Source of the DNA: Atopobiaceae bacterium
GTDB lineage: Bacteria; Actinomycetota; Coriobacteriia; Coriobacteriales; Atopobiaceae
Length of the DNA stretch: 64,000 nt
Direction of reading: 5' to 3'
Assembly (NCBI GenBank): GCA_017510785.1
Contig: JAFWMH010000056.1
Span: forward strand, 1 to 64,000
A model generated the notes under the pieces. The model made no database searches and had not been told where the DNA came from. It was given only the letters and a program-made list of their open reading frames with translations. Below, one piece after another: positions 30,100-33,650 of this stretch (positions are counted from its first letter, which is position 1; every line of letters begins with the position of its first letter). The translations under genes were made by a program, and so were the position numbers.

Positions 30100-30246
30100 C
30101 TGGTTCTCCTTGGATAAACACACATACGAACATATCATACCCACCTTTGGTGGGCGGGAACCGTACGACATGCATAATTCTGAGAGGTCTATGGTGGCCG
30201 CGTGCCGGGCAGTTAACAAAGAATGGCTTCGTATCGCCAAATTGTT

Positions 30247-30274
30247 TTGATTGAATCTGTCAAAAGCTTATTAT
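30247..30274 (+). promoter_or_regulatory. Promoter of the Nif11-type leader gene
   Basis: TTGATT at 30247-30252 and TATTAT at 30269-30274 are 16 bases apart. Transcription would start about 50 bases before the leader-peptide ATG at 30333. The signal looks intact although the genes behind it are broken. Confidence 0.5.
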
Positions 30275-30332
30275 AGGATAGAATATAGCGAAGTTGGCTT
30301 AACAACATGTACGAGGAGAGGGGCAGGCAACT

Positions 30333-30520
30333 ATGGCTGATGGTATGTCGATACAGGAATTCCAAGCGGCGTGAGAGAATGATCCGGCGTTCTTGGAGCA
30401 GTTTGATGCTGCGTGCGCGCGAATTGCGCAGGAGGGCAAAGCGCAGAGCGATGGCGAAGTGATTAGCGCGGCTGCGATTGAGTTGGGTGTTGACTTGTCG
30501 ACAATCGAAGCGGACCGCAG
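30333..30520 (+). pseudogene. Nif11-like RiPP leader peptide gene, interrupted by TGA
   Basis: After GAGGAGAGG the ATG at 30333 opens MADGMSIQEFQAA, then a TGA at 30372-30374. The same frame continues ENDPAFLEQFDAACARIAQE and GKAQSDGEVISAAAIELG up to GVDLSTIEADR. This matches the Nif11-type leader layout: short N-terminus, a 'DPAF..F' helix, and an Ala-rich helix ending in 'ELGvDLS..E'. The TGA is one base from the Trp codon TGG expected at this place in the family. No core peptide follows, because the frame runs into radical SAM coding sequence in another phase. I infer a decayed precursor gene joined to its maturase by a deletion. Confidence 0.6.
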
Positions 30521-31575
30521 TCTTGCCTCCCTTGGAGGACTGTATCTATATCGTGGACGAGCTCGCGCGTGCGGGCATCACGCATGTGGACCTTACCGGA
30601 GGAGAGCCGCTCCTGCGCAACGATTTGGAGAAGATCGTTAGGCGGCTGAGCAAATGGGGCATCGACATCGGCGTAATCTTTACCAATGCCTCGCTCCTCG
30701 ATGCGTCGGTGCTCAACATGCTGGAGCGCTACAATCAGCATCCTACCTTCCAAATTAGCTTTGACGGCGTAGGGCACCACGACTGGTTGCGTGGTGTTCC
30801 CGGCGCCGAGCAGCAGGCCAACGACGCCTTCAGGCTGCTACGCGAGCGTGGGTTCGAGCGCGCGGCAACAATGTGCATTCACAAAGAGAACAAGGATGTG
30901 CTGCGCGAAACCGTAAACCACCTTGCAGGCCTTGGCGTGGGTACGTTGCGCGTGAATGCTCCCACGTCGATGGGTATTTGGACGGAGTATGAAGAACGCT
31001 ATGCGCTTAGCATGGATGAGCTCTGGGATATATACCGCGACTACATTCCGCGTTTCTTCGAGGACGGCATGCCCATCAATTTGGAAATCGAGGGGTTCTT
31101 CGTTTGCGAGAAGGGCTCCACGAAGTACAAGGTGCAGTATGTCCACGATGCTCGTCCTGATTCAAACTGGAACAAGCTTGGCTGCTGCGAGAGCGTGCGC
31201 TATACACAGCACATCGACCCCGACGGGCGACTTGCTCCCTGCCAGGGCTTTTGCGAAACGGTACTGCGCGACGAGTTTCCCAGTGTGCTGGAGGGCGGCT
31301 TGGGATCGCTTACGCTTTGCGGGCGCTGTTACGAAATCGTTGAGACGAAAATCTCGGACTTCCTCAACAAAAACCCCGATTGCGCCACCTGCGAGCACCT
31401 TCCAAAATGCTGTGGTGGCTGCATGCTCGCAGGAATCGACGACGCGGGAAACTTCCTCGTGCCCGACGAGCGAATTTGCTACTTCTTCAAAAACATTGGC
31501 GAACAGGCTGTGCGCGATGTGGCCGATGCCGCAATTGCAAAGCATGTTCCTAACGCGTCTAGCGCGCCATGTTAG
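30521..31575 (+). pseudogene. Truncated radical SAM/SPASM peptide maturase
   Basis: From LPPLEDCIYIVDELARAGI the frame is clearly a radical SAM TIM-barrel (HVDLTGGEPLLRNDLEKIV, the GGE motif; FQISFDG). It ends with a SPASM domain rich in cysteine (CCES, APCQGFCE, LCGRCYE, CATCEHLPKCCGGC). The N-terminal strand with the CxxxCxxC cluster motif is missing. The sequence before LPPL is the Nif11 leader in a different frame. Without the three cluster cysteines the enzyme cannot bind S-adenosylmethionine in the usual way. It was probably the maturase of the adjacent leader peptide. Its 3' end overlaps the convergent phosphodiesterase gene by 17 bases. Confidence 0.7.
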
Positions 31576-33430
31576 CTATGATGTTGAGGAGTATGTTGAG
31601 GATGCGCGGCAAGCCTCCGCGGTAGTCGGCGTGGTCGAGCGCGGCGCTCACGAGTAGGGGATTATCGGTTCCTATTACGTCCACGTCGCAGCTTACGAGG
31701 TATTGCACCGTGTCCTCCAAGTCGACGGTCCAGCAAAACACGAGGATGCCCTTGTCGTGAAGCCGCTTTACGAGTTCGGGGGTGACGTTGGTCTCCTCAA
31801 TGGTAACGTTGTTGGTGTAGGGGATGTCTTCGACGTTTCCTTGCGCGACGAACATGCAGTATCCCTTGGTTATGGTGGGGTCCAGCTCGGCTATGCGTAT
31901 GAGGTTGCGCGCCTCTTGTCCAATTACCATAACGTTTTCGTGCATGCCGGTTTTGTTGATGACCTCCAGAACGTGCTCCTCGAAGTCCTTGTCGTCTTTG
32001 CTGCCCTTGAGTTCGACCTGCACGTTGACGCCGTGCTCCTTGGCACTTGTAAGCACCTCCTCGAGCGTTGGAATAACGACGTGTTCGTACACGCCAGGCA
32101 TCCAGTCGCCCATCTCGTACTGGGTGAGTTCGGCGTAGGTGTGATCCTTGATTTCGAGGTCGTGACCCGTCACGCGGTCGATGCTGGGGTCGTGGCTACA
32201 TACGATGACGCCGTCGGAGGTTTGGTACACGTCGAGCTCAATCCACGAGAGGTTTTCGCTGAAGGCGAGCTCGAACGCGGGCATGGTGTTCTCGGGCGCA
32301 TTGACGTTGTCGCCGCGATGTGCGCACACGAGCGGGCGCTCGACCGGCTCGGCAAGGAACGAGTATTTCGTCGCGAGAAAAACGCCGGTTCCAACGAGCA
32401 CGACCGCGGCGGCAGCTATGGCCGTCCGTCGAGCGAACGGTGCGATCTTTTCGCGCCTGAAGGTCGCGTGCGAGAGCGTGCCGACGGTTTCGGTTTCGTC
32501 GATGTACAGGTAGAAGCACACGGCGAGGCCGGCATTGTTGACGGTTGGTATGAGCAGGCTCTGGAGGACCTGCCGCAGGGCGTAGGTGTAGGTCCCCACT
32601 GCGGCGGAGCGGGTGACGACGCCGCCTTCGTTATGGAAGAGCGCGAGGAACTCCGAAATGTTAATCGTGATGGCGGAGGCCACCGTGTTGATGAGGAAGT
32701 TCGTGAGGAACATGAGCGTGCCCAAAAACAGCACCGTCTTGAGGTAGCGGCCCTTGCCGAGCCTTCTGCTTTCGGCGCAGCTCGGAATGAAGTCCACGTC
32801 CTTAAGAACAAAAATGTTTATTGAGAAGACGTACACGAGAGCGATGCACAGCAAGATTGTGTACAGGATGCTATAAGCCACGGTGTACACGGCGGTGTAG
32901 TCAATCGTTTGGTTGACAAACCCTGGCACGATGAGCTTGTGCGTCGTCCCCGCCAAAGGCATTACTTTGGTGAGCGGCATCAAAACGAGCAAGAACACGA
33001 TGATGAGCCAATTCTTGGGATGCGCCGCCTTGCGACAAGTTCGGAGTGCCGCCATAAACATGCTGTCGAGGTTGGTCTCGAGTCCGATTTGCCCCATGGA
33101 GAACGCGTGCAGCAATCCCGAGATTTGGAAGAGGGCGATTTGGGTTGCGATGAGCTGCTCGAAGAGAAGCACGAGGATGGAAAGCGGATGCAACACCACG
33201 TCACGCAGGTTGGCCGGCGAGATGTAGGTGTTGCCGGTGATTGCCATGATGAGCTTCGTGGTTGCCGATGTGAGCATTGACGTCGCTATGAGCGAAAAGA
33301 CGGAACACACCAACACATACAGGGTGACGACTTTAAAGTTATGCCGGAACAGGTGGAGGGTGTTTTTGAGGAAGTACACCAATTCCGAAAAGAGCGCCGA
33401 TGCGCGTTCGTGCCTAGCCTGTGCGTTCAC
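31559..33430 (-). CDS. Membrane glycerophosphodiester phosphodiesterase
   Basis: 623 residues. The first roughly 370 form a multi-pass membrane domain of the GPDPase_memb type. The cytoplasmic-size C-terminal half is a GDPD TIM barrel with LVCAHRGDNVNAPENTMPAF, WIELDVYQTSDGVIVCSHD and VQVELKG, which hold the metal-binding Glu/Asp and catalytic His residues. It hydrolyses glycerophosphodiesters or lipid headgroups at the membrane. I chose the GTG at 33430 because AGGAGGA lies six bases upstream. The ATG at 33472 has no ribosome binding site. Confidence 0.9.
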   Translation of the reverse strand: MNAQARHERASALFSELVYFLKNTLHLFRHNFKVVTLYVLVCSVFSLIATSMLTSATTKLIMAITGNTYISPANLRDVVLHPLSILVLLFEQLIATQIALFQISGLLHAFSMGQIGLETNLDSMFMAALRTCRKAAHPKNWLIIVFLLVLMPLTKVMPLAGTTHKLIVPGFVNQTIDYTAVYTVAYSILYTILLCIALVYVFSINIFVLKDVDFIPSCAESRRLGKGRYLKTVLFLGTLMFLTNFLINTVASAITINISEFLALFHNEGGVVTRSAAVGTYTYALRQVLQSLLIPTVNNAGLAVCFYLYIDETETVGTLSHATFRREKIAPFARRTAIAAAAVVLVGTGVFLATKYSFLAEPVERPLVCAHRGDNVNAPENTMPAFELAFSENLSWIELDVYQTSDGVIVCSHDPSIDRVTGHDLEIKDHTYAELTQYEMGDWMPGVYEHVVIPTLEEVLTSAKEHGVNVQVELKGSKDDKDFEEHVLEVINKTGMHENVMVIGQEARNLIRIAELDPTITKGYCMFVAQGNVEDIPYTNNVTIEETNVTPELVKRLHDKGILVFCWTVDLEDTVQYLVSCDVDVIGTDNPLLVSAALDHADYRGGLPRILNILLNIIANMAR

Positions 33431-33650
33431 GACCGTTCCTCCTGGCGAGAGTTCGAGCTTGGTTTTGTCCATCGTAGCATTGAATCTCGCACGTATGTCC
33501 CATATGTACCGAAAGAATAGTCAAGTGCCAATCCGTTGCCCGGAGGGAGCTGTGCCCAAACAGTTCCTTGGACGGGCTCGGCTCGGATGTCCCGACTCGG
33601 GGCCAATTTCCATAGATGGTAGTTTTAGGGCTGCAAACGGTATGTAACTT

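Follow-up and report, generated by a model that had tools for sequence, protein, structure and literature searches.

The locus at 30333-31575 of the window (the whole 64,000-nucleotide stretch of Atopobiaceae DNA analysed here) is very probably a pseudogene pair left by a deletion in a Nif11-leader/radical SAM operon. It is a pseudogenised, ordinary copy of an already known kind of system, Nif11 leaders having been described as RiPP precursors by Haft et al. 2010 (PMC2887384). Both parts lie on the plus strand. The first, at 30333-30530, is a Nif11-type leader of a RiPP precursor that is cut off before the Gly-Gly site and has lost its core peptide. The second, at 30529-31575, is the C-terminal ~73% of a radical SAM/SPASM peptide maturase, with a partial barrel and a SPASM domain but no RRE-like domain and no CxxxCxxC motif. 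Because the core, a complete leader, the leader-binding domain and the SAM-binding [4Fe-4S] cluster are all missing, the locus is unable to make a modified peptide. The original prediction, the wreck of a Nif11-leader/radical SAM operon, is the best reading of the region, and intact operons were found in other gut bacteria, with a paralogous one in the same genome.

The leader is read in frame 0 and the maturase in frame +1. As judged by alignments to intact relatives, the deletion junction lies at 30515-30533 on the plus strand, and could not be placed more finely because both sides look alike there; its predicted position near 30521 was correct to within about 15 nt. In ten relatives' loci the precursor gene is located directly upstream of the maturase gene, with a span of 564-917 bp between the positions that are joined in the window. 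Given this order and span, a single deletion accounts for the window structure. The proposed fusion by deletion therefore fits the gene order and the motif of the intact operons, and one loss of ~0.6-0.9 kb suffices. The ancestor would have had two genes, one for a Nif11-leader precursor and, after it, one for the corresponding RRE-radical SAM/SPASM maturase. One deletion of about 0.6-0.9 kb would have joined precursor to maturase, and with it would have gone the end of the leader and its Gly-Gly cleavage site, the core peptide, the spacer between the genes and the first ~128 maturase codons. The nonsense TGA in the leader would be a separate event. Translocation in place of deletion was ruled out, as a whole-genome search found no copy of the lost maturase N-terminus beyond the intact paralogous operon on contig C65; the N-terminus was therefore lost, not moved.

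The locus is known from one metagenome-derived assembly of one strain, and the genome, which is in 81 contigs, includes several related precursors and a second maturase. An assembly artefact, either a joining of two paralogous RiPP loci or the collapse of a repeat, could arise in such a setting but is unlikely here. The window maturase and its C65 paralog are only 57-58% identical, too different to collapse, and no contig carries the missing N-terminus except in that paralog. In addition, the flanks towards ftsH and ileS are both continuous, and the TGA is an independent lesion. A genuine deletion is hence the preferred reading.

The maturase ORF extends from 30478 to 31575 (365 aa), and its similarity to three intact same-genus relatives starts at the PLED codons, at 30529. 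A radical SAM/SPASM maturase without its SAM-cluster cysteines had been predicted, and the alignment agrees: residues 1 to ~128 are absent, including the CxxxCxxC motif for the SAM cluster (PF04055), which reads CN[FM]xCRHC in intact relatives. The Pfam Radical_SAM match (E 1.1e-12) begins at profile position 22 of 166, and the N-terminal RRE-like leader-binding domain is also missing. The barrel remainder and the SPASM cysteines of the maturase subfamily are present, and all eight cysteines that are invariant across 18 family sequences (the window counted among them) are retained. No stop and no frameshift occurs in the 348 remaining codons, the codon-position G+C of which is gene-like. A remainder that is open and conserved indicates recent loss, and recent inactivation is the simplest reading; given the lack of stops and frameshifts, neutral change since the loss amounts to at most roughly 0.03-0.1 per site, the figure varying with the assumed indel rate.

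The wholly open frame, gene-like composition and retained cysteines would also be expected if a truncated SPASM/partial-barrel protein were still made from an internal start (e.g. GTG 30553 behind GGAGGA, or TTG 30478) and kept a function, such as cluster holding or substrate binding without radical chemistry. Changes at 3 of 64 family-invariant positions, compared with 0-5 in other members, are no clear excess, but fit recent loss equally. However, the GGAGGA is formed by codons of a conserved Leu-Glu-Asp motif and lies a long way ahead of the GTG, while the SAM-holding region of the barrel is gone. The intact full-length relatives recovered all keep CN[FM]xCRHC, and none starts at the internal start of the window ORF. 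Further, the end branch of the window maturase in the tree is 0.6, longer than the 0.24-0.41 of same-genus copies, and the absence of stops only sets the bound on neutral change given above. A retained truncated protein is therefore considered very unlikely, and the ORF is best read as the remnant of an inactivated gene.

The leader frame from ATG 30333 to 30530 translates as MADGMSIQEFQAA*ENDPAFLEQFDAACARIAQEGKAQSDGEVISAAAIELGVDLSTIEADRSLAS, and its assignment draws on this translation, a relatives-only HMM and a genome search. The match to Pfam Nif11 is weak (E 0.074, 13.8 bits against a cut-off of 23.8). A leader profile constructed from the relatives' precursors, with the window left out, matched 30333-30530 with E 1.4e-14, the sole significant match in the six frames of the window. 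The same leader, with one TGA inside, was retrieved from the whole genome by the intact C65 precursor as query (E 2.5e-4). It is homologous to Nif11-type leaders, and it runs into maturase sequence ~15 codons before the expected Gly-Gly site, so that site and core are absent. The in-frame TGA (30372-30374, plus strand) interrupts the first leader helix, as the prediction of a Nif11-like leader with a premature TGA had it. The Trp codon expected at 30372 in intact copies was not found: the column is aliphatic in all relatives, with Leu, Met, Ile or Val and never Trp, and in the window the codon is still a stop. Upstream of the leader, at 30247-30284 on the plus strand, are the sigma-70-like promoter matches TTGATT-16-TATTAT and CTGTCA-16-TAGAAT, each with 9 of 12 consensus positions; three 9-of-12 matches were observed against 0.6 expected. 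The promoter, originally called still good, thus stands as a consensus-level match.

In this genome TGA works as a true stop codon. Reassignment was tested since few genes of the window end in TGA (2 of 34 long ORFs), and a further prompt was the internal stop of a second precursor, which proved to be TAA. A gene for RF2 is present, and recG and an rRNA methyltransferase gene end in TGA, as do 54 of 247 genes in a stop survey of about 480 kb; in the same survey, a coding-like continuation followed one TGA as compared with 19 TAA or TAG codons. In the window, no conserved gene was seen to carry TGA where Trp is expected. Decoding of the leader TGA as an amino acid (Trp or Sec), which would leave the leader uninterrupted and matches the scarcity of TGA-ended ORFs in the window, was ruled out by the stop survey and RF2, disagrees with the residues found in that column in relatives, and would still leave the leader without its end and core, so that its probability is negligible. 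The preferred stop is TAG (123 of 247, with TAA at 70 and TGA at 54, in the window plus about 420 kb of other contigs), an uncommon pattern at a genomic G+C of about 59%, and one that reflects a bias, not a changed code.

Upstream of the locus lies ftsH (minus strand). Downstream is a gene for a membrane GDPD (minus strand), with overlapping 3' ends, followed by ileS, identified from its sequence. No exporter or protease adjoins the window maturase, its neighbours being ftsH and GDPD. Five congeners have ftsH next to ileS, and their similarity to the window ends at ~30128 and restarts at 33624. Hence, the wreck and the GDPD gene lie in a lineage-specific segment of ~3.5 kb (30129-33623), and the same site in the five congeners holds neither this insert nor an intact orthologue. 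GDPD is found at different sites in three congeners, and the closest maturases (G009, G011 and contig C65) are likewise located elsewhere, not between ftsH and ileS. No convincing terminal or target-site repeats of a mobile element were detected at the ends of the insert, and no RNA families were found. Proteins of ~340-360 aa that look related by eye (L155 405-1484 and L029 3082-4101; function unassigned) adjoin GDPD in one congener and an intact maturase in another, and could be encoded by an accessory gene travelling with these units. Elsewhere in the window, at 36-755, a repetitive ORF with MGVVWATFAAFFAAIWHFWHPLL-like repeats resembles translated short DNA repeats and not an ordinary gene.

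The intact paralogous operon on contig C65 consists of a maturase gene (L028 9200-10621, minus strand), a first precursor (L028 8518-8988), a second precursor, and genes for a HlyD-like protein related to TIGR03794 NHLM, a C39-peptidase ABC transporter and a second ABC transporter. The second precursor (L028 8064-8510, minus strand) is broken by an in-frame TAA located after the leader but ahead of the Gly-Gly site, and is another decaying precursor. More precursors, at C65:40.0 kb, C65:41.3 kb and C48:1.2 kb, were found in the genome with the intact C65 precursor as query, and the cores of these precursors have C-x(3)-[YW]-x-C motifs in common. The C65 maturase falls in no curated NCBIfam equivalog (best 99 bits, cut-off 400). 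Its predicted structure (pLDDT 89, with high confidence in the N-terminal strands and helices) aligns with SuiB over the full length. This fold match, together with what is known of SuiB, suggests that the N-terminal domain would be of the RRE kind. The RRE-like domain is the part deleted from the window maturase along with the SAM cluster motif.

Close relatives of the maturase, with 48-63% identity, are encoded at 22 loci in public genomes, nearly all of them gut or rumen MAGs from Coriobacteria, Clostridia and others. The operon anticipated in relatives, with leader, core and full-length radical SAM protein, was recovered intact in other gut bacteria and on C65, and the CxxxCxxC expected of such copies is present as CN[FM]xCRHC; these copies are paralogs or belong to other species, and do not represent the same locus. 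Across several phyla of rumen and gut bacteria, the Nif11 precursors of this family (L073-L094, L028, L032 and L033) carry core motifs of the form C-x(3)-[YW]-x-C that are conserved and often duplicated, and they share a maturase subfamily that lies outside the curated families. A stop or frameshift interrupts two further maturases of this subfamily (L082 8430-8445 and L144 1046-1091); such units may often decay, unless these interruptions are assembly errors.

In intact members, the RRE domain would hold the leader, the radical SAM/SPASM enzyme would cross-link or otherwise modify the Cys/Tyr-rich core motifs, and the C39-peptidase ABC exporter would cut after Gly-Gly and export the product. 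It is possible, though on balance doubtful, that the intact relatives make up an uncharacterised RiPP class, mostly of the rumen and gut and in several phyla, with Nif11 leaders, C-x(3)-[YW]-x-C cores, an RRE-radical SAM/SPASM maturase outside the curated families tested, C39 export and possibly a new type of cross-link, the window being a dead copy. No paper on this rumen family was found by full-text search of the open-access literature. The intact family, in which the Cys/Tyr cores are conserved and the maturase fits no curated model, is a more interesting lead than the wreck itself. The wreck documents how, inside one genus, RiPP units are gained and are lost through deletion, and its practical value is as a pointer to intact precursors, maturase and exporter, present both in this genome and in many gut bacteria, which could be expressed to learn the modification.

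Among known systems, the N11P Nif11-like leader family (TIGR03798/PF07862) is similar in that the intact relatives have a leader of about 70-80 residues with a Gly-Gly site, a conserved helix and a GY.[IVL][ST] segment, with scores of 17-33 bits, near or under the 32.3-bit cut-off of TIGR03798. Where N11P cores are hypervariable, those of the relatives have Cys/Tyr motifs in common, and the window copy differs further in having a stop, no Gly-Gly and no core. For the maturase, the RRE-containing radical SAM/SPASM enzymes SuiB (streptide) and SkfB (sporulation killing factor) were the best folds for the C65 model (E 3e-14 and 5e-14, respectively), and SkfB and a SuiB entry were the top PDB sequence matches, with identity of about 15-19%. 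SuiB and SkfB act with short leaders, whereas Nif11 leaders are found here, and the window copy lacks both the RRE-like domain and the SAM cluster. TIGR04103 (nif11-class peptide radical SAM maturase 3), which is named for Nif11 peptides, and ScmE (TIGR04250) belong to the same superfamily, but scores of 60-99 bits, below the respective cut-offs of 725 and 400, exclude membership. Similarly, TIGR04347 pseudo-SAM/SPASM, named as lacking a working SAM domain, matches the window protein at the superfamily level, but the score is 46.8 bits against a cut-off of 525, and in the window the motif was lost by deletion.
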